DNA of 64,000 nucleotides. Source: Humisphaera borealis (GTDB lineage Bacteria; Planctomycetota; Phycisphaerae; Tepidisphaerales; Tepidisphaeraceae). The notes below the pieces were generated by a model. The model was not told the DNA's origin and searched no databases. It was given only the letters and a program-made list of their open reading frames with translations. Both the position numbers and the translations under genes were made by a program. The stretch spans positions 5,146,001-5,210,000 of the forward strand of contig NZ_CP063458.1 of the NCBI RefSeq assembly GCF_015169395.1, written 5' to 3'. Positions 44,759-59,827 of the stretch are shown one piece after another. The stretch's first letter is position 1, and each line of letters starts with the position of its first letter.

Positions 44759-46039
44759 ATGACCCGAATCCCCCCAACCAATCCTCAGCCCGGCGCGGCC
44801 CAGGCGTCGTCGTCGCAGGCACTGACCCCAGTCGCCCGACCCGCCAACGCGCCGGCTGGATCGCCCGTTCGACCCGCCGCGACATCCACGCAGGTGCCGA
44901 CGCCGGTACAGGTCGCCGCGTCCACCGGGGCACAAACGCCGCATACATCGGCGATTCATCGCGCGTTCGAGGCGAGCCTTGAGTTCTTTCTCGGCCCGCT
45001 GTTGCCGTTCCTGCGCGACGCCGAGGTGACCGAGATCATGGTGAACGGCCCGACCGACATCTACGTCGAGCGCGCCGGGCAGATCACGCGGACCCAGGCG
45101 GTCTTTCCTTCCGAGGCCGACGTGCAGGCCGCCGCCCGGAATGTCGCCCAGTTTGTCGGTCAGCCGATCTCCGAAGAGCGGCCGATCATGGACGGCCGGC
45201 TGCCGGACGGCTCACGTGTATGCGTCGTTCTCGGCACCGTTGCGGCAAGAGGGACACAGATCAATATTCGCCGGTTTCCGCAGGCCAGCGGGACTCCGCA
45301 GTTTCTCATCGACCGCGGCGCGATTACGCCGATGGCGATGGAGTTTCTGCTGCTGGCGGTCCGGGCCAAGTGCAACCTGATGGTCAGCGGCGGGGCGGGC
45401 TGCGGGAAGACGACGCTGATCAACGTGCTCTCCACCGCGTTCGGGGCGGCCGAGCGGATCCTGGTCATCGAAGACACGCGAGAATTGCAGATTCAGCGAG
45501 AACACGTCGTTCAGATGGAAGCCCGCCCGCCCGACGCCCACGGCCGGGGGCAAATTACCATCCGCGACCTGTTCGCGGCGTCGCTGCGCATGCGGCCGGA
45601 CCGGATCATCATCGGCGAAGTTCGGCGGGGCGAGGCGCTGGACATGATCCAGGCGATGACCAGCGGTCACCGTGGCGCGCTCGCAACTGTTCACGCATCA
45701 ACGCCTTACGATGCGTGTCATCGGCTCGAAACCCTGGCGATGATGGCCGACGTCGGCATCCCGCTGCACGCGTTGCGGCGGCAGGTGGCGTCGGCGGTGG
45801 ATTTGCTGGTGCAGGCCGAGCGTCTCAGTTCCGGCAGACGTCTGATATCATCGATCTCCGAGGTGTCGCTCGACGAGGCAACCCAGCAGTATGCCCTCAA
45901 CGAATTGTTCCGACTGGAAGGCGAGGGCAACGCCCGGCAACTCGTCTGGACCGGCGGGCGGTCCAGAACGCTCGCCACGGTCGCCGAGGCCGGTTTGGGT
46001 GGGCAAATGCAGCTAACGTTGCCGATGAGCGGACGGTAA
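44759..46039 (+). CDS. CpaF/TadA pilus assembly ATPase
   Basis: This 426-residue hexameric secretion ATPase powers Flp pilus assembly. A Pro/Ala-rich N-terminus (1-65) precedes the N-terminal domain (FLRDAEVTEIMVNGPTDIYV, ERPIMDGRLPDGSRVC). The ATPase domain has Walker A GGAGCGKTT with Lys217, the Asp box EDTRELQIQ, Walker B region MRPDRIIIGEVRRGEALDMI, and the His box GHRGALATVHAS. These are CpaF/VirB11-type features. It heads a same-strand run of Flp-like pilins, prepilin peptidase and TadE/TadG-like genes. The usual partners CpaB, secretin, CpaE and TadB/TadC are not in the window. Confidence 0.95.
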   Translation: MTRIPPTNPQPGAAQASSSQALTPVARPANAPAGSPVRPAATSTQVPTPVQVAASTGAQTPHTSAIHRAFEASLEFFLGPLLPFLRDAEVTEIMVNGPTDIYVERAGQITRTQAVFPSEADVQAAARNVAQFVGQPISEERPIMDGRLPDGSRVCVVLGTVAARGTQINIRRFPQASGTPQFLIDRGAITPMAMEFLLLAVRAKCNLMVSGGAGCGKTTLINVLSTAFGAAERILVIEDTRELQIQREHVVQMEARPPDAHGRGQITIRDLFAASLRMRPDRIIIGEVRRGEALDMIQAMTSGHRGALATVHASTPYDACHRLETLAMMADVGIPLHALRRQVASAVDLLVQAERLSSGRRLISSISEVSLDEATQQYALNELFRLEGEGNARQLVWTGGRSRTLATVAEAGLGGQMQLTLPMSGR

Positions 46040-46052
46040 AGTGGTCACTGGT

Positions 46053-46075
46053 TAGCGGTCGCACCGCAGGTGCAC
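46053..46075. repeat. Solitary family A2 arm
   Basis: It has the 23-base consensus arm of the element at 12241-12321 (core GGTCGCACCGCAGGTGCAC) with no inverted partner within 100 bases. It lies 13 bases after the CpaF stop. Confidence 0.9.
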
Positions 46076-46098
46076 CGGGCGTTGGATGTGACATCGAC

Positions 46099-46299
46099 AT
46101 GCTGATCCGACGATGCCGAGTTTCGCTCCGCCGACTTCGCCGCCGACTGGCGGGTGATTCGGGAGCGCTCTCGACGGAATACATGCTGATCATGGTGTTC
46201 GTGGTGCTGCCGATCGCGTTTCTAATGCCGATGTTCCTGAAGATGATCAACACCTACGGCACGCGGGTAACGAGTCTGATGCGGTCGCCGTTTCCGTGA
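46099..46299 (+). CDS. Flp-type pilin (small)
   Basis: The 66-residue product has a basic leader (MLIRRCRVSLRRLRRRLAGD), then SGALSTEYMLIMVFVVLPIA: the Flp processing motif G|XXXXEY, with Glu at +5 and Tyr at +6, opening the hydrophobic pilin helix. Length and motif are those of Flp1-type major pilins, although the leader is longer and more basic than usual. It follows CpaF by 59 bases. The neighbouring A24 peptidase would cleave after the Gly. Confidence 0.85.
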   Translation: MLIRRCRVSLRRLRRRLAGDSGALSTEYMLIMVFVVLPIAFLMPMFLKMINTYGTRVTSLMRSPFP

Positions 46300-46416
46300 C
46301 TGTTGTGGCATGGGCAGATACTCTTGTCCGTGCAAAGGGCGAACCAGGCACGGGCATGAGTAGATGCCAATGCCACAAGTATCGGGGCGACGGGATTGCG
46401 GAGAATGGAGCCAACT

Positions 46417-46596
46417 ATGCTGAAACGGATCGGGCGGAAGATCAAAGCCTTGCACGAAAACGAGTCGGGCGCGATGTCGGTCGAGAAAGTGATGATCATC
46501 GCGCTGATCGCGCTGCCGATCATCATCGCGCTCTGGCTGTTCCGAAAGACACTCGTCGGTTGGTTTACCGACCAGACCCAGGATCTGCAGCCGTAG
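46417..46596 (+). CDS. Flp-like pilin, variant motif
   Basis: The 59-residue product has KRIGRKIKALHENESGAMSV, then EKVMIIALIALPIIIALW. The processing site reads G|AMSVEK: Glu at +5 is kept, but the +6 Tyr is replaced by Lys, so the two pilins differ in a residue that is conserved in Flp proteins. The start is ATG 46417, with GGAG 6 bases upstream; earlier ATG and TTG exist in frame. Possibly a minor pilin or assembly primer. Confidence 0.8.
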   Translation: MLKRIGRKIKALHENESGAMSVEKVMIIALIALPIIIALWLFRKTLVGWFTDQTQDLQP

Positions 46597-46795
46597 GGTG
46601 ACGCTGTCGCGCGCCGGACAGCGGTCTGATGGAGCCGTGTGTCCATGACGCAAGCCACTCCCGTGTGCGTTGGGCGGGACGCGAAATGAGTTATCTTCTT
46701 GCGGGCGTCCTTTGAACTCCATCGCACCACGCACGGGCTGGAAGCCCGTGTCACAGATTGCGTCGTTCGACTTCGTCGCCGAACTGCGATTGATC

Positions 46796-47557
46796 ATGGA
46801 CGCCGACACCGCCGTCATCTCCGCCGATATCAAAGCCACGGCGAGAACGCCCTGGGCTGAGGCGTGGGGCGGGATGGTCGGAGTGGCGGCCGTAGCGGCG
46901 ACGGCGGCGATGCTCGTCCGCGGCCCAGCCGCAACTAGCGCGGGCGGAATCCCCGCTGCTGGATCCGGCCTGTTCCTTCCCGTCCTGTGTCTGGGCGTGA
47001 CGGTGATTGCGGCGGGTTTTGACGCCGCGACCAACCGCATTCCCAACCCGCTGACCTACACCGCTGTCCTGGTTGGGGTTCTTGTTAATTGTCTTGCGCT
47101 CTTGCTCAATCAGATCGCGCCGCGCGTGGCATCGCAGTGGCTCGGGGCGGCGGGGCCGACGCAGTCGGCGCTGGGGCTGCTGCTGTTCGGCGGGATCGGC
47201 CTGATTGGGGTTGTCTTCGCCGGCATGGGCGGCGGCGACATGAAATTGCTGGCCGCGATCGGTGCGATGCTCGGGATGTCGCGGGCGTCGGATGTACTCA
47301 TCTGCGGAGCGGCGGTCGCCGTCGTCTATGCCCTGGTCAACCTGTTGATTGCCGGCCGACTGAATGCGACGTGCCGGCTCGCGGCGAGCCACCTGCTGAA
47401 CTGGGTCTATCTGCGGCGATGGACGTTGTCAGACGACCAGGAGAAGCCGGCATCCCGGCGAACGATTCCCTTGGCCTTGCCGCTTCTTGCGGGCACGATG
47501 CTGGCGCAGACGCCGCTGGTCGCGAATGCGATCGGGTGGATGTCGGGTGTCGGATAA
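46796..47557 (+). CDS. A24 prepilin peptidase (CpaA/TadV type)
   Basis: The 253-residue membrane aspartic peptidase has about six helices, with the two catalytic Asp residues in GFDAATNRIPNPLTY and in the GxGD-like GMGGGDMKLLAAIGAMLGMS. It lacks the N-terminal methylation domain of PilD, as is usual for Tad peptidases. It would process the neighbouring Flp and TadE-like proteins. ATG 46796 gives a compact protein; the frame extends upstream but without family similarity. Confidence 0.92.
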   Translation: MDADTAVISADIKATARTPWAEAWGGMVGVAAVAATAAMLVRGPAATSAGGIPAAGSGLFLPVLCLGVTVIAAGFDAATNRIPNPLTYTAVLVGVLVNCLALLLNQIAPRVASQWLGAAGPTQSALGLLLFGGIGLIGVVFAGMGGGDMKLLAAIGAMLGMSRASDVLICGAAVAVVYALVNLLIAGRLNATCRLAASHLLNWVYLRRWTLSDDQEKPASRRTIPLALPLLAGTMLAQTPLVANAIGWMSGVG

Positions 47558-47573
47558 CGGTGCGAGTGACGCC

Positions 47574-47663
47574 GTAGGGTCCGCCTTGGCGGACGCGAGT
47601 GCTTCACCGGTCGTAACAGCTTCGGCGTGGTTTGACGTTCGCGTCCGCCAAGGCGGACCCTAC
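47574..47663. repeat. Paired-hairpin element, family A1, copy 2 (perfect)
   Basis: Arms 47574-47597 and 47640-47663 are exact 24-base inverted repeats with internal palindrome GTCCGCCTTGGCGGAC. The 42-base spacer is unrelated to that of copy 1 (8630-8720). Confidence 0.97.
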
Positions 47664-47717
47664 AAAAAGGCGACACCGAAGTCAGTCTGTGAGAATGCGC
47701 CTGGTCTGCGAACATTA

Positions 47718-48338
47718 ATGTCGTCAAACCGTTCCATCATCGTCCGCATTATCCGCACCGCCCGCGGTGACGACGGCGCGGCGGCCGTCTCGTTCATCAT
47801 GACCTTCCCGTTGTTCCTGTTGATTGTCGCGATCATCGTGCAATTGGCCCTGATCGTGACCGCCAAGATCATGATCTCCCACGCGGCCGACACCGCGGCT
47901 CGCGCCGCGATGACGAGCCTTCCGGAAGACAAGCCCGACAATGTTGCTCGTGCCGCCAGACTGGCGCTGACGCCGATCTGCCCGGAAGCAAAGAACGGTG
48001 CGTCGTCGCAGGCGTCGGCAGTCGCCGATGCCTTGCGGCAACTCGGCACCGAAGTCCCTGAAAGCTTTGCCAATCGATACACCTACGCGATGGAAGCGAC
48101 GCAGGTCAACTGGACGCCGTCGGAGCACAACTACATCGGGTCGGAAGGCTCGCCGGTCGAGGTCGAATTGACGTATCAGTTTCGCCTGACGGTACCCTTC
48201 GCGATGCGGCTGGTCTCCGGCAGAGAGACCTCTGTCGCCGGCGTGAGCGGCCGTTTCTGGGAAGTGTCGGCCCGCCGGCAGGTTCAGGCGTCGCACGGCC
48301 GGCGGGCGCGGATTGATAACGATTTCTGGTCGCGGTGA
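47718..48338 (+). CDS. TadE-like pseudopilin
   Basis: The 206-residue product has a short cytoplasmic leader, then GDDGAAAVSFIMTFPLFLLI and a single hydrophobic helix to ~50, with a periplasmic body of ~150 residues. The TadE (PF07811) pattern is clear, with ARAAMTSLP after the helix, but the residue at +5 of the G|XXXXE-type site is Ser rather than Glu. ATG 47718 is chosen; the long frame upstream crosses the repeat and is not family-like. It stands third in the pilin-gene order after the peptidase. Confidence 0.85.
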   Translation: MSSNRSIIVRIIRTARGDDGAAAVSFIMTFPLFLLIVAIIVQLALIVTAKIMISHAADTAARAAMTSLPEDKPDNVARAARLALTPICPEAKNGASSQASAVADALRQLGTEVPESFANRYTYAMEATQVNWTPSEHNYIGSEGSPVEVELTYQFRLTVPFAMRLVSGRETSVAGVSGRFWEVSARRQVQASHGRRARIDNDFWSR

Positions 48339-48363
48339 ACGAAGGCATCGCCACGGCCGAGAA

Positions 48364-48600
48364 ATCACCACGGAGGCACGGAGACACGGAGGGCAACCGG
48401 TGATCAGCACGAGTTGTCATCCTGCGGTACTCCGAAGGACCGTGTATCCCTGGCGGAGACGTAAACGACCGGACTGTGCCCGTGGATAGCGCAACCGACG
48501 TTCGAGGCATAACTTGTCTTGGACACAAGGGCCTTCGAAGTACCTCAGGATGACAAATGTGCGCGGTACACCGAGCGTGTCTCCGTGCCTCCGTGGTGAT
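48364..48600. repeat. Nested inverted repeat, class B outer arms
   Basis: The outer arms 48364-48388 and 48576-48600 are exact 25-base reverse complements made of CACGGAGG words. An inner imperfect pair (TGTCATCCTGCGGTACTCCG at 48415; CGAAGTACCTCAGGATGACA at 48536) belongs to a different family. The whole 237-base element fills the TadE-TadG gap. Confidence 0.95.
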
Positions 48601-48624
48601 TCAGCGTTTTCGACGAGGCGATTC

Positions 48625-51156
48625 ATGACAGACCCATGTAAAGCCGCAATTCGCTGGTGTCATCGGCGGTTTCATGTCGACGACCGGGGGAACCTGGGCA
48701 TCTTGCTGCTGATGACGATCTGGGCGTTGGTCCTTCTGATCGCGATGGTCTGGAACACCGGCGAACTTGCGACCCGTCGTCGGCACGTGCAGGCGGCGGC
48801 CGATTCGGCGGCCCACGCGAGCAACCAGTGGGTCAGCCGAACCACCAACCTGACGGCCAGTTCCAACCTCGTCATGAGCCAGAATGCCTCGGCCGAGGTC
48901 ATGCTGCGGTCGGTCACGCCAACCCGGAACGACATTCAGAAGCGATTCGATGGCGAACGACGCCGGGCCATACAACTTCGGGATGGCGACCGAAAAAGCG
49001 AGCCAGAGGAAGGCATTCCCGACTGTGAATACTTCGAAGAACTGCTGGGATTTGGTTCCTGGAGCGGCAAAGGCCGTGGGCAGGAGCGCAAGAAGGAACT
49101 TACCGCGCTGACACCCGATGTGCTTCGGGCCCTGGACATGGTGCTTCCGTTGCTACAAGCGCAGCAGGCGCAGCGGCTGAGCCAGGACATGAACACGGCG
49201 CTTCAGCAGAACCGCTTCATCCTGGACTGGCTCCTAGACACCTACATCGGCCCGGTCGGCGGTGCGTCCGGCACTCCCGCGCCCGTCCCTTCGCCGTCGA
49301 GCTTTACGCCCGTGGGTGCGCCCGTCTCGGACTGGATCACCAACCAGGTTCGGCCTCGGCTCGAAGACATCCTGGCGACGCTGGATGTCGAACAATCTTG
49401 GCTCGATAAGTGGGTCGCCCAGACGGCCCCGGCCTTGTCCACCACGCCGGAGGAACTCCGTCAGGTGCGGTTCGAGATCTTCGACTACCAGAACCAGATC
49501 CGCGACCTGACGCCTGCTGTCGTTGAAGAACAGCGCAACGCGCTGGCGACGATGTACAAGGTGGAAACGTCGGCATCCGTTCCCGGGCGGCTAAGTGAAG
49601 GGGAGCCAACGCCTGTCACCGCGCCGGTGACCACCTCGGCTTCTGTCGGCGGCGAAACGGTGCAGGACAGCATCCGCCAGCGCTATCCCGGCGCCACGGC
49701 AAGGCGGTGGGGGAGTCCGTCGCCGGAGGTCTATGTCGATCCGATCAATGTCAACGTAGACCACAGCGCCATTTGGCATCCTGGCAGCGGTAGTTCGGTC
49801 GACGGTGTCGTCCTCGAGAACGCGACCTACAGTGGCAGCGTGTCTGTCGGCGGCGGCGACTGGGGCCGAATCCCCTGTGCGCCGCTGAACCGTTACGTCA
49901 ATGATCGCGTGTACCGCGATCGCGAAGGGCTGCGTACCGAGCCGCGGGCGATCGACGGGGTTCGGTCCGACCTTCGCGGCCGCGTCCATCCGCCGCCGTC
50001 GCCGCCGACCATCTCGCCGCTCCCGAACCAGGTGGATGAACCCACCACTACAACGCCTCCGCCGAATCCTGCTCCTCGCGTCTCGTTGCCGCCGAGACAG
50101 ATACCCAGCCTGCCGCTGCCCCAGGAACTGACGCAGGCAAACCGCGATGCGATAACGGCCGTGAATGACCGCATCCGCGAGTACAACCGCGAACTGCGGG
50201 ATTTCGTGAGCGATCTTCGTCGGCTGGAGAACGCCGTCGCCCGGATGCACGACCACCTGCACTCTCTGACCGATGTTTCGTCCCAGCGGTTCGCCGATGC
50301 GACATGGCTCGGACATGTCGATCGCAACCGCGACCTGGTGCTTCGGCTGATGGGTTCGGACAAGCATTTCATGGTGCTGGCGACCTACCAACTGCACCAC
50401 ATCCCCGACTGGGCGATCGACGGGATGCGCGCCGACGTACAGCGGCACGTCTACAACCTGATCTATTCGCGCAGCATCAACCCCGTCACCCGGCGACTGC
50501 AGCAGGAGATTTATCAGTGGGCGCTGGGCGTTCTGGGCGGATCGCTGCCGCAGGGGACGCCTCGCAGCACGATCAACAACAGGGCCCGGCAATTTGCCCA
50601 GCAGGCGGCACCGCCGGCGGCACAGAACGCCGTCCGCCGGGCGGCCGAAACTGTCTCGCGAGAGGTTGCCGCCGAGTGGATCCGTCGGCCTTGGCCGTAC
50701 GAGATCGCGCCGCCGACCGAAGAGGTCCCTCCGGCGCGCGGCCTCTCCGACGACGAGCGGAAGAAGCATTTCACATCCCTCGCGGCTGCACTGACGACCG
50801 ATCAGAGCAGCGCACGCACACTGCTTGCCAAGTACTTTAAGACCGACAGCGGGCCGATGGTTGCTTTTGCCCAAAGCGAGATCTTCAACTGGATGGAGTT
50901 CCAGGAAGGGTATGGCGCCAGCGATCGGTATGACCGCATCACCTTCTACGGTCATGGCGACATGGGCGGCTCGCCGCGCCCCTGGCGTCTGGGTTCGCCC
51001 GGCGGATGGAACTGGGAACCCCGGCTCGCCCACAGCGACGCCTTGGCACAGGCAATCGCCGATGGCGAACACTTTCGCGGACTTTTCGAGAAAGGGGGCG
51101 TGAATGCGAACGGCAACAGCGACAGCGATTCGATTCAGACGCTTGCCACTCATTAA
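48625..51156 (+). CDS. TadG-like Flp pilus-associated protein
   Basis: This 843-residue protein has one N-terminal helix of the Tad type (DDRGNLGILLLMTIWALVLL, then ELATRRRHVQAAADSAAHAS; PF13400-like), with the rest outside the membrane. The exterior part contains a helical region (~130-330), two Pro/Thr-rich linkers (~215-235 and ~465-500), and a conserved-looking C-terminal domain (~530-840). The G|XXXXE pilin cleavage motif is absent, which fits TadG-type anchors. Length exceeds most TadG proteins (~400-600), and no von Willebrand factor domain was recognised. Start ATG 48625 follows the repeat. The 3' end overlaps the next gene by 53 bases in another frame. Confidence 0.8.
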   Translation: MTDPCKAAIRWCHRRFHVDDRGNLGILLLMTIWALVLLIAMVWNTGELATRRRHVQAAADSAAHASNQWVSRTTNLTASSNLVMSQNASAEVMLRSVTPTRNDIQKRFDGERRRAIQLRDGDRKSEPEEGIPDCEYFEELLGFGSWSGKGRGQERKKELTALTPDVLRALDMVLPLLQAQQAQRLSQDMNTALQQNRFILDWLLDTYIGPVGGASGTPAPVPSPSSFTPVGAPVSDWITNQVRPRLEDILATLDVEQSWLDKWVAQTAPALSTTPEELRQVRFEIFDYQNQIRDLTPAVVEEQRNALATMYKVETSASVPGRLSEGEPTPVTAPVTTSASVGGETVQDSIRQRYPGATARRWGSPSPEVYVDPINVNVDHSAIWHPGSGSSVDGVVLENATYSGSVSVGGGDWGRIPCAPLNRYVNDRVYRDREGLRTEPRAIDGVRSDLRGRVHPPPSPPTISPLPNQVDEPTTTTPPPNPAPRVSLPPRQIPSLPLPQELTQANRDAITAVNDRIREYNRELRDFVSDLRRLENAVARMHDHLHSLTDVSSQRFADATWLGHVDRNRDLVLRLMGSDKHFMVLATYQLHHIPDWAIDGMRADVQRHVYNLIYSRSINPVTRRLQQEIYQWALGVLGGSLPQGTPRSTINNRARQFAQQAAPPAAQNAVRRAAETVSREVAAEWIRRPWPYEIAPPTEEVPPARGLSDDERKKHFTSLAAALTTDQSSARTLLAKYFKTDSGPMVAFAQSEIFNWMEFQEGYGASDRYDRITFYGHGDMGGSPRPWRLGSPGGWNWEPRLAHSDALAQAIADGEHFRGLFEKGGVNANGNSDSDSIQTLATH

Positions 51157-51628
51157 CCCGCGACGCGGCACGGCCGAGATCGAACTCGTCCTGTCGGTCG
51201 TCGTGATGATTACCCTGCTGATGCTGACGCTCGGCGCGATGAAGATCGCAATCGCCCGGCTCGATACCGCCAACACCGCCGAGTTTGAAGCGTTTTACGA
51301 TGCCACCAGCGCGCAGGATCCGCAGTACACCGGCTATTCCGACCTCACCCCCATTGGCGGCGTCGGCAATGTTCGGCCGGGTCTTCCCGATCGCACCCAT
51401 GTCGCCAAGCCAACCGCCCGGGTGACGATATCGACGGGCAATCGCGAATCGTTGACCACCGAAACCGGTGGCAAGGCAGGGCTGATCAGCCCTGCTTGGA
51501 ACTACTCTGGCTATCCGGTGGGCAGTGCCGATCACGTCGTCACCGGCGGCTGGTTCGGCGATTACGCCAACGAGTCGCACGGCCAGCTGACCGACCCCCT
51601 CCGTCTGGCACCGGCCTGGACACCGTGA
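51104..51628 (+). CDS. TadE-like pseudopilin (second)
   Basis: The 174-residue product has a leader with RRGTAEIELVLSVVVMITLL: the cleavage-like site G|TAEIEL has Glu at +5, then a hydrophobic helix, then a ~120-residue external domain ending LRLAPAWTP. It overlaps the TadG-like gene by 53 bases in a different frame; AAAGGGGG at 51091-51098 is its ribosome binding site. It completes the pilin cluster, followed by a 202-base gap without recognised features. Confidence 0.78.
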   Translation: MRTATATAIRFRRLPLINPRRGTAEIELVLSVVVMITLLMLTLGAMKIAIARLDTANTAEFEAFYDATSAQDPQYTGYSDLTPIGGVGNVRPGLPDRTHVAKPTARVTISTGNRESLTTETGGKAGLISPAWNYSGYPVGSADHVVTGGWFGDYANESHGQLTDPLRLAPAWTP

Positions 51629-51830: not shown

Positions 51831-54800
51831 ATGCCAATGATCAAGTCCATCGTCCTCGCTCTCCTGGTTCTCGCGACCAGCGCGAACGCCGCTCCGCTTG
51901 TCTTCGAAGGAACCGAAGGCCCCGGCAAGGGCAAGCACATCGTCTTTCTTGCCGGCGACCATGAGTACCGGTCGGAAGAATCGCTGCCGGCGATCGCCCG
52001 CCTGCTCGCCAAGCACCAGGGCTTCAAGTGCACCGTGCTGTTCAACATCGATCCGGCAACGGGCGATATCGTCGCGGGCAACTCGAACATGCCCGGGATG
52101 GAAGCCCTCGATACCGCCGACTTGGCTGTTGTGTTCCTGCGCTTCCAGGCCTTCCCCAAAGAGCAGATGAAGCACTTCGACGACTACCTCAACCGGGGTG
52201 GTCCAATCATCGGCCTTCGGACGGCGACGCACGGTTTCAAGACCGGCAAGGACGACCCCTTTGCCAAGTATTCGTACGACAGCAAAGTCGCCGGCTACGA
52301 GCTGGGTTTTGGCCATCAGGTGCTGGGGCAGACGTGGGTCGGCCACTACGGCAAGAACCACTCACAGAGCACGCGGATCACGATCGTCGAAGACAAGAAA
52401 TCGCATCCCATTCTTCGTGGCGTGAAGGACATCTGGGTTCAGGTGGGCGCGTATGTGGGCAAGCCGACTGACGGCGATATCCTGACCATGGCGCAGCCGC
52501 TGAACGGCATGACACCCGATTCGCCGCCGGATGCCACCAAGCCGCCGCAACCGTCGGAATGGACGCGGACGTACAAGTCGGCATCGGGCAAGGCCGGCCG
52601 GGTCTTCACGACGCTTTACGGCACCTCCGAGGACATCACCAATGAAGGCTACCGCCGAATGCTGGTCAACGCCTGCTTCTGGGCGATCGGCCTGGAAGAC
52701 GCGATCAAGCCCGACCTGACGATCGACTTTGTCGGACCGTTCAAGCCGAACACGTTCAACAACGCCGCCAATGCCAAGGGGGTCAAGCCGGAGATGTACG
52801 CGGGCTTTGAAAGCCAGATCCCGGCAAACAATGACATCAAGAAGCCGGAACCCAAGCCCGCGCCGGCCAAAGCCGCCCCGGCGAAGAACGCGCCGGCTGA
52901 AAAGAAGGAACCAAAGGCCCAGGCGAAGAAGGAACCGAAACCGGCCGATGCCAAGAAGCCAGCCCCGGCTTCGGGTGAGGTCCTTGTCGCGGTCCCGGCC
53001 GACTACCGCGATCCGACTCCCTTCGAGTTCAGCAAGGGCGACACGGTAGCGATTCTCGGTAACGGCCTCCCCGACCGCATGCAGCACGACGGCTGGATGG
53101 AAACGGTCCTTCAGGCGCAGATGCCCGAACTGCAGGTCCGCTTTCGCAACATGAGCGCCAGCGGCGACCGGCCGGACTCCTTTCCCCGCAGCAAGGGGCA
53201 GGCGTCGATGACCGAGTATCTGCAGCTGGTCAAGCCAGATGTCGTCTTTGCGTTCTTCGGCTACAACGAATCGTACGACGGCGTCGAGAAGGCCGATGCC
53301 TACCGCAAGAAACTCGTCGACTTCGTCCAGAAGACACGCGCGGCCAGGCCGAACGGCAAGAGCTTCCCGCGCATCGTCCTGTTCAGCCCGATCGCCCACG
53401 AAGACACCCGCAACCCCAATCTGCCCGACGGCAAAGCTCATAACGTACAGCTCGAAGCCTACACCAAGGCGACCGAAGCCGCGGCAAAGGAAGCGGGCGT
53501 CGCATACGTTGACCTGTTCCATCCGTCGATCGGATTGTTCAAGTCTGCCGCAAAGCCGTTGACGATCAACGGCGTACACCTGACGGCAGAAGGCAACCGC
53601 CGGCTTGCCGAAGTCATCGGTCATACGCTGCTCGCGAAGCATGTCAGCGCGTCGGAGTCGCTCGAGCCATTGCGGCAGGCAGTTCTAGATAAGGACAACC
53701 ACTGGAACAACCGCTATCGCGCCCGCGACGGAAACGACGTCTGGGGCGGTCGTTCCACGCTTGCGTTTGTCGACGGTCAGACCAACGCCGTCGTTCTTCA
53801 GCACGAACTGACGATGCTCGACGTCATGACGGCCAACCGCGACGAGCGCATCTGGGCCCGCGCGGCCGGCAAAGATAAGACGATCGACGACAGCAACGTG
53901 CCGGCACCGGTGCCGGTGGTCTCGAACGTCGGCGGCAAGAGCAAGAGCTCCAACGCGCAGAAGGAAGGTGTGCTTCGGTACGTCAGTGGCGAAGAGGGCA
54001 TCAAGCAGATGGCCGTCGCCAAAGGGTTCGAGGTGAGCCTGTTTGCCGATGAAGCCAGGTTCCCGCAGCTCATCAATCCCGTACAGCTGCAGGTCGACAC
54101 CAAAGGGCGTCTCTGGGCCGCCGTCTGGCCGACCTATCCCAAGTGGGAACCGCTCAAGGCGATGAACGATGCCATCCTCATCCTTCACGACGATAACAAC
54201 GACGGCAAGGCTGACCGCGTAACCGAGTTCGCCAAGGTCCACAACCCGCTCGGCTTCGAGTTCTGGAACGGCGGTGTCATCGTCACCTGTGCGCCTGAAA
54301 TCCTGTTCCTGAAAGACACCGACGGTGACGATGTCGCCGATGTGCGGGAGATCATCCTTCAGGGTGTCGACTCATCGGATACCCACCACAGCGCCAACAA
54401 CCTGATCTACGGTCCCGACGGCGCCATCTACTGGCAGAGCGGGGTGTTCATGCAGCACAACCACGAGCATCCGTGGGGACCGTCGCTGAACACCGGGGCG
54501 TCGGCGATGTACCGGTTCGACCCACGCCGTTTCGCCATCTCGATGCACGCGGCCAACTCGCCCAACCCGCACGGAACTTCGTTCGACTACTGGGGCTACC
54601 AGTACGCCACCGACGGCACCGGCGGCAGGGCGTTTCAGGTGCGCACGACCGACAAGGGGTTCAAAATGACCGAACTTCTGAAGAAGGAAGTTCGGCCGGT
54701 CACTGCGAGCGAAGTCGTCTCCAGCGCCAACTTCCCCGAATCCATGCAGGGGGACTTCCTGATCTGCAATGTGATCGGTTTCCTGGGCATCAAGCACTAC

Positions 54801-55865
54801 CACCTTGATCGTAACCCCACCACCGGTGCGGTCTGGGGCGAACCGGCCGGCGACGAACTGACTGCCACCGTGATCAATGCCGACGGCAGCAAGACTGAAG
54901 AAAAGTCGCGCGGCCTGATGATGAGCGGAGACAAGAACTTCCGTCCGTCCGATGCCATTTTCGGGGCCGACGGCGCGCTGTACATCGCCGACTGGCACAA
55001 CGTCATCATCGGTCATATGCAGCACAACGTGCGTGACCCCAACCGCGACCACAGCCACGGTCGCATCTATCGCATGACCGCCACCGGCCGGCCGCTTCAG
55101 AAGCCGGTCGCGATCGACGGCCAGCCGATCCCCGCGCTGCTCGAAAACCTCAAGCACCCGATCGACGGTGTTCGCCACCGGACCCGGGTCGAACTCAGCG
55201 AGCGCGACACCAAGGAAGTCCTCGCTGCAGCGAAGGAATGGATCAAGCAGTTCGATCCCAACAAGAAGGAAGACGCCCATCACCTGCTCGAAGCGCTCTG
55301 GCTACACCAGCAGCACAACGTGCGCAACCCCGAACTGCTGGCCACGCTGCTCAAGAGCCCTGAGCCGCACGCCCGCAATGCGGCCGCGACCGTGCAGTAC
55401 CTCTGGAGCAATGTCGAGGCCGGCCAGCACGGCGGCGTCATCGCCGGTGCGGTTTTCGAAGAGGCCAAGCCCTCGGGTATCCTCTCCGACACGCCCGAAC
55501 TGACCACCATCCGGATCGCGACCATCCCCGAGAAGATGCTGTACGACGTCAAGGAAGTGAAGGTGAAGGCCGGCAAGAAGATCAAGCTGACCTTCGCCAA
55601 CCCCGACTTCATGCCGCACAACATTCTACTGGTCAATCCCGGCAAGGCCGAGGATGTTGCCTTCCGCGCGATGGCGTTGGGCGCCAAGGGCTTTGACGTT
55701 CATTTCGTCCCCAAGAGCCCTGACATCATCTGGGCCGGCAAGATGATCGATCATGGCAAGGAAGAGGTCATCGAGTTCAACGCGCCGACCAAGCCCGGCG
55801 TCTACCCGTTCCTGTGCACCTTCCCCGGGCACCAGAACATGCGTGGGAAGATGATCGTGGAATAG
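51831..55865 (+). CDS. ThuA - SGNH hydrolase - PVC-type dehydrogenase - cupredoxin fusion protein
   Basis: This 1344-residue secreted protein has a signal peptide (~4-22: [17 protein letters not shown]) and four modules. (1) ThuA-like domain, ~30-300 ([33 protein letters not shown]). (2) After a Lys/Ala/Pro linker (~335-380), an SGNH/GDSL-like hydrolase, ~385-603 ([53 protein letters not shown]). (3) PVC-type membrane-bound dehydrogenase beta-propeller, ~713-1085, then a helical region. (4) C-terminal type 1 copper domain, ~1224-1344, with ligands His1263, Cys1329, His1334 and Met1337 ([14 protein letters not shown]). The c-type haem often found between the last two modules in relatives is absent. 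A carbohydrate-oxidising, copper-wired enzyme is plausible; the reaction is unknown. Confidence 0.93.
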
Positions 55866-55901: not shown

Positions 55902-57230
55902 ATGTCCCGGATCACCTTACTCATCATCGCCGCGCTGGCCCTGAACCCTGTTTCAGGACTGCAGGGTGCCGACAAGCCTGTCGTGGAGTCGGCCGGGATT
56001 GTCGGCCCCTGGAATCTCAACGATCTGAAGCAGCCTCCGAAGATGCGTTGGCTCAAGCAGGGTGGCCCCGTGCATTCGCTGCTGTACGCTGGCGAAAAGT
56101 ACCAGGGCAAGGACACTGAGGTCTTCGCGTTTTATGCCTCACCTGCGACGCTCGGTGTTGCCAAGGCGGGGGAGAAGTTCCCCGGCGTGGTCCTGATCCA
56201 CGGCGGCGGGGGGACGGCGTTCGCCGAATGGGCCTGGCTCTGGGCCAGACGCGGATATGCGGCGATCGCGATGGACCTCGGCGGCTGCAAGCCGATCGAT
56301 CCGGTTTACGATGCCAACGGCGTCCCCGTTCTGAACCAGACCGCAAAAGCCGATACCCGAACCCGCCTGCCCAACGGCGGTCCGAATCAGGGGCATCCCG
56401 AGAAGTTCGACAGCATCGGCGGCGACATCTCCGACGACTGGCCTTATCACGCCGCCGCCAGTGTCATCCGGGCTCACTCGCTTCTCCGCTCCTTCCCCGA
56501 AGTGATCGCCGACCGGACCGCGGTCACCGGCATCAGCTGGGGCGGGTACACCACCTGCCTCGTCGCCTCGCTCGACGACCGATTCAAGGCCGCGGTACCG
56601 GTCTACGGGTGCGGCTTTCTCCACGAAGGCGAATCCGTCCAGAAGCCGTCAATCGACAAGCTCGGCGACCGCCGGGACCAATGGGTCAGGGAATATGACC
56701 CGTCAAGCCTGTTGCCGCGATGCCGGGTGCCGATCCTGTTCGTCAACGGCACGAACGATGTGCATTACCCCCTCGACAGCTACCAGAAGAGCTTTCAGGC
56801 GGTTCCCGGCCCGAAGCAGATGCGCATTGAAGTCAACATGAAGCACGGCCACCCGCCGGGTTGGGCACCGCAGGAAATCGGCCTGTTCATCGATTCGTTC
56901 TGCCGCGACGGCAAGCCACTGGCAGTCCCCGGCCCGCTCACGATCGACGGCGGAAAGGTTCGGCTGGCGTACACCAGCGCGGTTCCTCTGAAGTCGGCCG
57001 TCCTCCATTACACGACGGGCAATGAGATTCGTTCCAAGCGGCTCTGGAACAGTATTCCGTCGGATATCGCACCCGGCGTGGTGACGGTAGCCATACCACC
57101 GGCCGATGCGAACACCTGGTTCATTGCGCTGACCGACGAGCGCGGTGCGATGGTGACGAGCCCCGTGCAGATTGTCGCACCTCTGCCGGGCAAAGCTTCG
57201 AGTCTGAAGACGGGGAGCCAGCCGCAGTAG
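55902..57230 (+). CDS. Secreted alpha/beta hydrolase (acetyl-xylan-esterase-like)
   Basis: The 442-residue product has a signal peptide (1-23) and an alpha/beta-hydrolase core: oxyanion region VVLIHGGGGTAFAEWAWLWA, nucleophile Ser212 in VTGISWGGYTTCL, Asp in NGTNDVHYPLDSY, His in MKHGHPPGWAP. A ~100-residue beta-rich C-terminal domain follows (~330-442). It starts 36 bases after the giant fusion gene on the same strand, so the two are likely co-expressed in saccharide breakdown. Closest family features are those of planctomycete secreted hydrolases related to acetyl xylan esterases/dipeptidyl peptidases; the substrate is unproven. Confidence 0.88.
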   Translation: MSRITLLIIAALALNPVSGLQGADKPVVESAGIVGPWNLNDLKQPPKMRWLKQGGPVHSLLYAGEKYQGKDTEVFAFYASPATLGVAKAGEKFPGVVLIHGGGGTAFAEWAWLWARRGYAAIAMDLGGCKPIDPVYDANGVPVLNQTAKADTRTRLPNGGPNQGHPEKFDSIGGDISDDWPYHAAASVIRAHSLLRSFPEVIADRTAVTGISWGGYTTCLVASLDDRFKAAVPVYGCGFLHEGESVQKPSIDKLGDRRDQWVREYDPSSLLPRCRVPILFVNGTNDVHYPLDSYQKSFQAVPGPKQMRIEVNMKHGHPPGWAPQEIGLFIDSFCRDGKPLAVPGPLTIDGGKVRLAYTSAVPLKSAVLHYTTGNEIRSKRLWNSIPSDIAPGVVTVAIPPADANTWFIALTDERGAMVTSPVQIVAPLPGKASSLKTGSQPQ

Positions 57231-57388: not shown

Positions 57389-59827
57389 ATGACCGAAGTA
57401 CTGGACTCTTCCGCGGCTTTCCCTGCCGAGCATCAACCAGAGGACGCTCACCGGCTTGCCGGTGCGTTGCAAACCTATCGGTACGACGACAAGACCGTAC
57501 GCGCTTTTCTCGTTGCGACCTACGTCTGGGGCATCGTTGCGTTCCTTGTCGGGCTTTACGTTGCGGTGCAACTGGTGTGGCCGCAGACATCGTTCGGCCT
57601 CGAGTTTCTGTCGTTCGGCAGGCTGCGACCGCTCCACACCAATGCCGCGATCTTTGCGTTCGCCGGAAACGCCCTTTTTGCCGCCATCTACTACTCGACG
57701 CAGCGGCTCTGCAAGGCCCGGATGTGGAGCGACAAGCTTTCGCGGGCGCATTTCTGGGGATGGCAGCTGATTATCGTTTCGGCAGCACTCACGCTGCCCC
57801 TGGGCGTCACGCAGGGCAAGGAGTACGCCGAGCTCGAATGGCCGATTGACCTGATGATCGCCGTGGTCTGGCTCGGCTTCTTCGGCGTCAATTTCTTCAT
57901 GACGCTCAAAAACCGCCGCGAGCGGCACCTGTACGTCGCGCTCTGGTTCTACATCGCGACGATCGTCACCGTCACGGTACTGCACGTTTTCAACAACCTT
58001 GTCGTCCCCGCCGGCTTGTTCAAGAGCTACTCCATCTATGCCGGCGTGCAGGACGCGTTCATGCAGTGGTGGTACGGCCATAACGCCGTCGCGTTCTTCC
58101 TGACGACGCCTTTCCTCGGCCTTATGTACTACTTCCTGCCCAAGGCGGCGGAACGGCCGGTGTTCAGCTACCGGCTGTCGATCGTCCACTTCTGGTCGCT
58201 GGTGTTCCTCTACATCTGGGCGGGTCCGCATCACCTTCACTACACGGCGACGCCGGACTGGGCTTCAACCCTTGGCATGCTGTTCTCGCTCATGCTCTGG
58301 ATGCCCAGCTGGGGCGGCATGATCAACGGCCTGCTGACGCTCCGCGGTGCCTGGAACAAGGTGACCACCGATCCCGTGCTCAAGTTCTTCGTCGTCGGTA
58401 TCACGTTCTACGGCATGTCGACTTTCGAAGGCCCGCTGCTGAGCATCAAGAGCGTCAACGCCCTGAGCCACTACACCGACTGGACGATCGCCCACGTCCA
58501 TGCCGGCGCATTGGGTTGGAACGGCTTCATGACCTTCGGGATGATTTACTGGATGCTGCCCCGGCTGTTCCAGACCAAGATCTGGAGCCCCAAGCTCGTC
58601 AATGCCCATGTCTGGCTCGGGACCATCGGCATTCTGCTCTACGTCATCCCGATTTACGTCGCCGGTATCACGCAGGGCCTGATGTTCCGGGCGATTACCG
58701 AGGCCGGACAGCTTCAGTATCCCGACTTCGTCGAGACCGTGCAGGCGATCCGGCCGATGTACATGCTGCGCATCCTCGGCGGAACGACGTTCCTGGCCGG
58801 TGCGCTGATCGGCGGCCTCAACTTCTTCATGACCTGGCGGTCGCGGCCACGGGTTTACGAAGAACCCACCCATTCGGCACCCGCGCTCGCGAAACATGTA
58901 GCGATCGTCGACGCCCGGCCGGAAGTGCTGGGAACCGGTATCGTCGCTGCCGCCAGCCGCCTGGCCAACTGGACCACGCTTTGGTGGCACCGAGGCTGGG
59001 AGCGACTCCCGCTGAAGTTCACCGTGCTGGTGATTGTCGCGGTGGCGGTCGCATCTCTGTTCGAGATCATTCCGACGTTCCTCGTCCGCTCGAACGTACC
59101 CACGATCGCATCGGTCAAGCCTTACACGCCCCTGGAACTGGCCGGCCGGGACATCTATCTCGCCGAAGGCTGCTACAACTGCCACAGCCAGATGATTCGC
59201 CCGATGCTGGCCGAGACCAAGCGGTATGGCGAGTACTCCAAGCCCGGCGAGTTCGTGTACGACCACCCGTTCCAGTGGGGCAGCCGGCGCATCGGGCCTG
59301 ACCTGGCGCGGGAAGGCGGCCGAAAGTCGGACCTTTGGCATTACCAGCACTTCCTTGCTCCGGGCGAAGTGACGCAGGGTTCGATCATGCCGCCGTATGC
59401 ATGGCTCAGCGATCAGGACACCGATTTCGGGTCGATCGCCCTGCGCGTCCGAGCGATGCAGGCCTTGGGTGTGCCCTATACCGATGCTGATCGGGCAGGG
59501 GCGTCGGAATCGGCAAAGGTGCAGGCAGGCCGAATCGCCGCGAACATCGCACAGCAGGGCGGCCCTCCGGGACTTGAGCAGAAGAAGGTCGTCGCGCTGA
59601 TCGCTTATGTGCAACGGCTGGGCAAGGATCTGTTCGAGCCGCCGCCGCCGGGGCCGGCCGTTCCCCCGCCTCCTCCTGCGGCGAAGGTGCCGCCCGTCGC
59701 TGACCCCGCGACAATGCCGGCGACGCAGCCCGCCGCCACACTACCGGCGACCGCGCCGGTCGCTCCACCCACCACGACGGTGACCAGTACAACCAAGCCA
59801 GCCAACGCCGAGGGAGGCAACCGATGA
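57389..59827 (+). CDS. ccoNO: cbb3-type cytochrome c oxidase, fused subunits I and II
   Basis: This 812-residue fusion of CcoN (~1-525) and CcoO (~540-812) reduces O2 to water with high affinity. CcoN ligands are all present: RPLHTNAAIFAF, WWYGHNAVAFF, AGPHHLHYTA and HYTDWTIAHVHAGALGWNG, with Tyr in FLYIWAGPHH as the likely cross-linked residue. CcoO has one membrane helix (~548-568) and a single haem c site with Cys595 (EGCYNCHSQMIRPM). A Pro/Thr/Ala-rich tail ends the protein. Fused ccoNO genes occur in Bacteroidota and other phyla. The stop overlaps ccoQ by 4 bases. Confidence 0.96.
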   Translation: MTEVLDSSAAFPAEHQPEDAHRLAGALQTYRYDDKTVRAFLVATYVWGIVAFLVGLYVAVQLVWPQTSFGLEFLSFGRLRPLHTNAAIFAFAGNALFAAIYYSTQRLCKARMWSDKLSRAHFWGWQLIIVSAALTLPLGVTQGKEYAELEWPIDLMIAVVWLGFFGVNFFMTLKNRRERHLYVALWFYIATIVTVTVLHVFNNLVVPAGLFKSYSIYAGVQDAFMQWWYGHNAVAFFLTTPFLGLMYYFLPKAAERPVFSYRLSIVHFWSLVFLYIWAGPHHLHYTATPDWASTLGMLFSLMLWMPSWGGMINGLLTLRGAWNKVTTDPVLKFFVVGITFYGMSTFEGPLLSIKSVNALSHYTDWTIAHVHAGALGWNGFMTFGMIYWMLPRLFQTKIWSPKLVNAHVWLGTIGILLYVIPIYVAGITQGLMFRAITEAGQLQYPDFVETVQAIRPMYMLRILGGTTFLAGALIGGLNFFMTWRSRPRVYEEPTHSAPALAKHVAIVDARPEVLGTGIVAAASRLANWTTLWWHRGWERLPLKFTVLVIVAVAVASLFEIIPTFLVRSNVPTIASVKPYTPLELAGRDIYLAEGCYNCHSQMIRPMLAETKRYGEYSKPGEFVYDHPFQWGSRRIGPDLAREGGRKSDLWHYQHFLAPGEVTQGSIMPPYAWLSDQDTDFGSIALRVRAMQALGVPYTDADRAGASESAKVQAGRIAANIAQQGGPPGLEQKKVVALIAYVQRLGKDLFEPPPPGPAVPPPPPAAKVPPVADPATMPATQPAATLPATAPVAPPTTTVTSTTKPANAEGGNR

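Follow-up and report, generated by a model that had tools for sequence, protein, structure and literature searches.

What a single secreted polypeptide that joins a ThuA domain, an SGNH-type domain, a dehydrogenase-like beta-propeller and a cupredoxin may do is the question raised by one gene of Humisphaera borealis, which lies in the stretch of 64,000 nucleotides analysed here (contig NZ_CP063458.1, positions 5,146,001 to 5,210,000; hereafter the window). The reading favoured in this work, to which roughly even chances are given, is that the fusion would be a secreted, single-chain carbohydrate-oxidising protein whose electrons are handed to the fused blue-copper domain. The original prediction, made from the letters of the DNA, had proposed that the protein deacetylates glycans, oxidises them and passes the electrons to copper, and had held both the copper domain and the position of the SGNH domain to be unusual; it was partly supported, being right on the anatomy and not on the points of novelty or the deacetylase step.

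Architecture of the fusion protein and its relatives

Profile searches, alignments and predicted structures show, within the reach of such methods, what fold each module has, that the SGNH domain is without its catalytic residues and that the set of blue-copper ligands is complete. The gene itself is real and well formed, and its frame is no product of chance, since 80 relatives have the same frame, mostly with 60-79% identity over the shared parts. All four Pfam domain matches exceed the curated cut-offs (ThuA, residues 48-285, 6.6e-11; Lipase_GDSL_2, 420-591, 2e-13; DUF7133, 721-1083, 2.1e-62; Copper-bind, 1234-1344, 1.5e-9), as does the NCBIfam model TIGR02604 (732-1085, 3.5e-53), the narrow azurin and amicyanin equivalog models being the sole copper matches of NCBIfam and Pfam that stay under their own cut-offs. 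The AlphaFold2 models are confident both for residues 22-345 (predicted local distance difference test, pLDDT, 94.0; predicted template modelling score, pTM, 0.93) and for residues 385-1344 (91.4 and 0.88). The assignment of the first module to the ThuA family (PF06283) is supported by profile and by fold, the top Foldseek matches of residues 22-345 being the putative ThuA-like proteins 4e5v (E 8.4e-9) and 4jqs, while the ThuA profile gave no meaningful match among the sequences of the Protein Data Bank (PDB). Thus, the 1344-residue frame with four modules was borne out by the open frame, by Pfam/NCBIfam and by AlphaFold2, together with a signal peptide read from the sequence; the four copper ligands stand at exactly the residues that had been named (Table 1), a search of the protein sequence confirmed that the CxxCH motif is missing, and the SGNH and cupredoxin folds, whose absence from a structure prediction had been set as grounds for rejection, were both obtained.

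For a census of the architecture, 84,980 species genomes were scanned, in which 138 relatives were found and 80 of them kept (L031-L110), all from Verrucomicrobiota and Planctomycetota; the alignment counts given below refer to 81 proteins, and the architecture tally to the window protein and the complete genes. The F5/8C domain stands between ThuA and SGNH in 47 complete genes, 28 with the order ThuA-F5/8C-SGNH-propeller-cupredoxin and 19 with the same order followed by a C-terminal CxxCH. The order without F5/8C is found in three (the window protein, L031 and L037), and in two (L032, L100) a CxxCH takes the place of the cupredoxin; the rest of the tally has no ThuA in the same frame or is cut by contig ends. 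Pfam confirmed the galactose-binding-like F5/8C domain (PF22633/PF00754) in L033, L038 and L067, where it stands at the place of the window protein's linker, and the cytochrome c domain in L032, L067 and L101. The window protein, as judged from these comparisons, belongs in shortened form to an uncharacterised subfamily that is widespread in the Planctomycetes-Verrucomicrobia-Chlamydiae (PVC) bacteria. The architecture is therefore real and common, not unique: the SGNH insertion between ThuA and the dehydrogenase is standard in the relatives, usually with F5/8C as well, and copper is the rule of the subfamily, to which 19 members add haem c and from which 2 depart with haem c only. The original prediction was to fall if this order proved common and characterised; common it is, and it is uncharacterised across Verrucomicrobiota and Planctomycetota, no description of a ThuA-SGNH-propeller-cupredoxin protein having been found in literature searches by architecture name.

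The third relative in which cytochrome c was confirmed, L101 (9027-14636), encodes 1870 amino acids with a weak cupredoxin match and the cytochrome c about 750 residues further, its ThuA being in a separate upstream gene. Several metagenome-assembled genomes in the set (L042, L048, L049, L054, L055, L065) are entitled with such names as Akkermansia muciniphila or Candidatus Kuenenia stuttgartiensis, which are probably the wrong species.

The SGNH domain belongs to its fold by the PF13472 match and by the alignment of its profile to the solved hydrolases 7br2 and 1yzf. However, the block I serine and the triad aspartate of an active SGNH enzyme are replaced by Gly412 and Asn580, a loss that was missed in the original prediction of deacetylation. 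At the nucleophile position the 81 aligned proteins have glycine in 74, alanine in 5, serine in 1 and a gap in 1, and the triad aspartate is asparagine in 81/81, with Gly445 of block II, Asn479 of block III and His583 of block V invariant; more distant paralogues differ at block I, where serine is kept in some (GNS, GAS) and threonine is found in others. Because the catalytic serine and aspartate are lost family-wide, a classical Ser-His-Asp esterase or deacetylase is unlikely in this domain, for which a binding role, or chemistry without that triad, is possible.

Propeller, copper site and electron exit

The propeller exceeds the thresholds of its two family models clearly (181.3 against 122.2 bits for TIGR02604 and 212.1 against 27 bits for DUF7133). 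The TIGR02604 model spans the propeller only, and the haem-binding CxxCH of its title is absent from the fusion, so that membership of the domain family holds and the haem label does not; the title "heme-binding CxxCH protein" is a misleading automatic name for the fusion and for many CxxCH-free relatives. In structure comparison by VIA-align the pyrroloquinoline quinone (PQQ) sugar dehydrogenases lead the ranking (Z 27.4 for 3a9g, 26.2 for the AA12 enzyme 6i1q, 26.0 for 2ism, 24.6 for E. coli Asd 2g8s, 23.6 for sGDH 1qbi), which places the module among the quinoprotein-type six-bladed propellers of the sGDH/Asd group (Z 23-27). Diels-Alderases, HHIP and SMP-30/DFPase come next with Z 23-24, and the function is therefore not fixed by the fold alone. 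In the hhalign comparison with E. coli YliI/Asd (E 6.2e-7), His853, the second histidine of a DTHH motif, aligns with the catalytic histidine of the PQQ enzymes, Asn912 with the asparagine of the Arg-Asn pair and Arg1038 with the first arginine of RxRD, where the PQQ contacts were taken from the published lists for sGDH and AA12 (PMC6881810, PMC6881789) and the positions of Asd were set by analogy. The aligned catalytic histidine and the asparagine do not vary within the subfamily, and the pocket motifs DTHH, NPHG and NFRP show little or no variation across the 81 aligned proteins, which favours a functional propeller pocket.

Two other search results concern the propeller. Its profile matched mostly NHL/teneurin-type repeats among the PDB sequences, E. 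coli Asd being the sole clearly relevant match. Nitrous oxide reductase, which held Foldseek rank 1, was rejected as a relative, because with an rmsd of about 26 A over 700 columns and a template modelling score of about 0.2 the match reflects a shared pair of fold types, propeller and cupredoxin, and no common arrangement.

The C-terminal module has the cupredoxin fold and the His-Cys-His-Met ligands of a type-1 copper protein, its nearest solved structures being the auracyanins (6kol, 1.4 A rmsd, 40% identity). The full ligand set is present in 72/81 aligned proteins; among the other nine, L032 and L100 have haem c there, and the rest are missing positions, mostly at contig ends. Copper only, copper with haem c, or haem c only may stand behind the same propeller in the relatives, and this interchangeability of copper and haem modules, as far as comparison can tell, supports a role of the cupredoxin as the electron-exit module.

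Feature map and genomic setting

Table 1. Features of the fusion gene and of the gene that follows it (positions in the window)
Feature	Positions	Strand	Basis
Whole gene, 1344-aa secreted ThuA - pseudo-SGNH - DUF7133/TIGR02604 propeller - cupredoxin fusion	51831..55865	+	ATG at 51831, stop ending at 55865, open throughout; Pfam/NCBIfam; 80 homologous loci
Putative Sec signal peptide, residues 1-21	51831..51893	+	read from sequence, no predictor used
ThuA domain, residues 22-330	51894..52820	+	Pfam PF06283, AlphaFold2 pLDDT 94, Foldseek 4e5v/4jqs
Lys/Pro/Ala/Glu-rich linker, residues 335-395	52833..53015	+	sequence; place occupied by F5/8C in most relatives
SGNH/GDSL-like domain, residues 398-684, catalytic residues lost	53022..53882	+	PF13472, profile match 7br2/1yzf, AlphaFold2
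Gly412 at catalytic Ser position, block I, GNG vs GDS/GNS	53064..53066	+	profile and alignment
Asn580 at catalytic Asp position, block V, NGVH vs DxxH	53568..53570	+	profile and alignment
Beta-propeller, residues 714-1089, DUF7133/TIGR02604, PQQ sugar dehydrogenase fold	53970..55097	+	profiles, AlphaFold2, structure alignment, hhalign
Short all-helical segment, residues 1100-1195, HEAT-like by position	55128..55415	+	AlphaFold2 secondary structure
Low-confidence, probably flexible linker, residues 1200-1211	55428..55463	+	pLDDT <50
Auracyanin-like cupredoxin, residues 1215-1344	55473..55862	+	PF00127; 6kol; profile E 1.3e-25
Type-1 copper ligands His1263 (55617), Cys1329 (55815), His1334 (55830), Met1337 (55839)	55617..55841	+	alignment
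Alpha/beta hydrolase (DLH/AXE1/PhoPQ-related)	55902..57230	+	Pfam; 36 bases downstream of fusion gene

Upstream lie genes of a Tad/Flp pilus type (T2SSE ATPase, TadE/G-like; window 44759-51628), the last of which stops about 200 bases before the fusion gene. The alpha/beta hydrolase expected directly downstream was confirmed at the distance foreseen and is possibly co-transcribed with the fusion gene; no close homologue of it was found in the flanks of the relatives. A cbb3 oxidase cluster comes next, with CcoN and CcoO fused in one frame of 812 amino acids (COX1 plus FixO; window 57389-59827) and then CcoP, a FixG-like and a DsbD-like protein, and this cluster is a possible electron sink. Among the relatives, the contig is long enough for this comparison in two, L138 and L142; both have the cbb3 oxidase genes, without the fusion gene upstream of them.

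Within its own genome the full ThuA-SGNH-propeller-cupredoxin order exists in a single copy; the 14 stretches that match the fusion protein are other DUF7133 proteins, with the layouts SGNH-propeller-HEAT-cytochrome c, SGNH-propeller-HEAT-F5/8C-cupredoxin and SGNH-propeller-HEAT-cupredoxin-cytochrome c, and separate ThuA frames. No other full-length copy was found among 61 genomes of the same class, many of which are incomplete drafts. A quick tree method with no bootstrap, applied to SGNH plus propeller, placed the window protein within a strongly supported set (SH-aLRT 100), in which 22 proteins are verrucomicrobial and 11 planctomycete, and the paralogues from its own family stand apart in a group of their own (96); the GC content of the gene shows no deviation. 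The simplest reading of these comparisons is that the gene was probably acquired laterally, loss in the relatives being the alternative.

Two adjoining DUF7133 genes of the window's own genome (L111, G000:C1:3277000-3290000) end in cytochrome c and in F5/8C plus cupredoxin, respectively, and have kept the block I serine of the SGNH domain (GAS, GNS). Several verrucomicrobia have, immediately 3' of the five-module gene, another SGNH-propeller-cupredoxin gene with about 33% identity (L051:12560-15766, L059:12493-15783, L047:5692-8907, L062:12553-15780, L043:12557-15772), whose nearest kin in the window's genome is L112.

Sulfatases are the commonest neighbours in the relatives, which makes a (sulfated) polysaccharide or oligosaccharide the probable substrate. 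Among the adjacent genes examined there, a Sulfatase match was found in 18/63, ThuA in 3/63 and the 3-keto-disaccharide hydrolase family in 1/63, with SGSH_C in 17 members; the 63 were hand-picked from 86 adjacent frames, mainly by dropping those apparently on the wrong strand or cut, so that the fair rate lies between 18/63 and 18/86. In each of ten carrier genomes the sulfatases number 46-99 or more, by estimate 1-4% of genes, and against a background of 4% the count of 18/86 has a binomial probability of about 8e-9, uncorrected for shared ancestry. The sulfatase-flanked loci occur in both phyla.

Competing readings and known systems

According to the oxidative reading favoured here, the quinoprotein-type propeller would take electrons from a hydroxyl group on a sugar or glycan, the flexibly linked cupredoxin would collect them singly, and periplasmic c-type cytochromes would carry them to an oxidase, while the ThuA domain would act on, or bind, the keto-sugar produced and the SGNH domain would serve as a non-hydrolytic binding or scaffold module; the relatives would do the same job with one module more, the glycan-binding-like F5/8C domain, and often with haem c behind the copper. 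Electron transfer to copper, as originally proposed, is the natural reading of a dehydrogenase-fold propeller joined to a complete type-1 copper domain. Several points weigh against this reading. The catalytic histidine is assigned in an alignment at about 20% identity, and the full PQQ site, with catalytic histidine, Arg-Asn pair, lysine and RxR together, is not present, as Pro911 replaces the arginine of the Arg-Asn pair, the lysine is absent and Ser1040 replaces the second arginine. The gene pqqC was found neither in the fusion's genome nor in ten genomes carrying relatives, by a search that as a positive control rose above the cut-off in 2/392 planctomycetes, and pqqB and pqqE gave matches below the cut-off only, likewise in the control genomes. 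No sulfatase adjoins the window gene itself, and to our knowledge the biochemical function of ThuA is not settled. For TIGR02604/DUF7133 proteins, neither a cofactor nor a substrate was found to be established. An oxidative glycan route is nevertheless plausible, if not proven, because of a report on the Chthoniobacter-like TIGR02604-HEAT-cytochrome c protein Lac161_ORF7 (AGW45552), which was described as a novel beta-galactosidase releasing glucose from lactose with a Km of 1.8 mM and a kcat of 13.2 per s (PMC5342196), and because periplasmic 3-keto-sugar routes for lactose and trehalose, in which dehydrogenases act with DUF1080 hydrolases, have been either described or proposed (PMC9007349). 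A more specific form, in which an enzyme specific to PVC bacteria would cleave glycans oxidatively, its quinoprotein-fold propeller oxidising a (sulfated) glycoside without canonical PQQ chemistry, probably to the 3-keto form, ThuA opening or eliminating it and the electrons passing to the blue copper of the same chain, is tentative and on balance unlikely.

The same propeller may be read as a canonical PQQ/calcium-dependent sugar dehydrogenase like E. coli Asd, working with scavenged PQQ, which is improbable to a similar degree: the fold and the alignment with Asd, with the catalytic histidine and the asparagine kept, agree with it, and PQQ contacts differ among quinoprotein subfamilies (PMC6881789), but three PQQ-contacting basic residues are missing, and the missing pqqC lowers the probability of PQQ use without excluding it, since scavenging is possible and PQQ enzymes are made by such non-producers as E. 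coli (PMC6881810). The Lac161_ORF7 report would fit instead an unusual glycosidase, in which the propeller cleaves directly or by oxidation and elimination and the copper or haem serves internal redox recycling only. This is a rather unlikely explanation, because a redox module at every C-terminus argues for net electron export, and because Lac161_ORF7, as described, is without ThuA, SGNH and cupredoxin and was produced in E. coli BL21(DE3)pLysS with a Km that its authors found similar to that of LacZ (PMC5342196), so that contamination may, we infer, stand behind the activity. That the whole protein is a non-catalytic surface or binding protein, with degenerate propeller, SGNH and ThuA scaffolds and a cupredoxin for copper handling, would agree with the degenerate SGNH domain and the eroded PQQ site; it is very unlikely in view of the conservation of the pocket motifs, and copper handling would leave unexplained the haem c found instead of copper in some relatives. 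Least of all is credit given to the bifunctional scheme first put forward, in which SGNH deacetylates glycans, the dehydrogenase then oxidises them and copper replaces haem c: it described the module order, the folds and the copper ligands correctly, but the nucleophile and the triad aspartate are lost across the family and copper and haem c stand together in many relatives.

The TIGR02604/DUF7133 proteins exist in many copies in planctomycetes and verrucomicrobia. With its conserved copper site and propeller pocket, its neighbouring sulfatases and its clear presence across two phyla, the present subfamily is well suited to revealing whether these bacteria degrade glycans oxidatively and how the electrons exit.

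Compared with known systems, the fusion shares the TIGR02604 domain with Lac161_ORF7, whose description mentions HEAT and cytochrome c and no ThuA, SGNH or cupredoxin, the two being thus set apart by description and not by sequence. With the TIGR02604/DUF7133 family at large it has the propeller in common, but without CxxCH, with merely a short helical segment behind the propeller and with a cupredoxin at the terminal place. The PQQ aldose and glucose dehydrogenases (Asd, sGDH, AA12) share with it the fold and the aligned histidine, asparagine and one arginine, whereas in the fusion the other basic contacts are lost, no pqqC was found and extra modules are present. The ThuA part is nearest in fold to 4e5v and 4jqs, but these are stand-alone proteins of 13-17% identity. 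Such SGNH/GDSL hydrolases as BT4096 (7br2) have the fold, blocks II and III and the block V histidine in common with the fusion, in which their serine nucleophile has become glycine and their triad aspartate asparagine. Auracyanin of Chloroflexus/Roseiflexus, with the same fold and ligand set, is a separate carrier, whereas the cupredoxin of the fusion is covalently joined to a dehydrogenase-like propeller. The ThuA-F5/8C-SGNH-propeller-cupredoxin(-cytochrome c) relatives have the same order, SGNH substitutions and copper ligands as the window protein, which differs in having neither the F5/8C domain nor the C-terminal cytochrome c present in many of them and is in this equalled by the similarly short L031 and L037.

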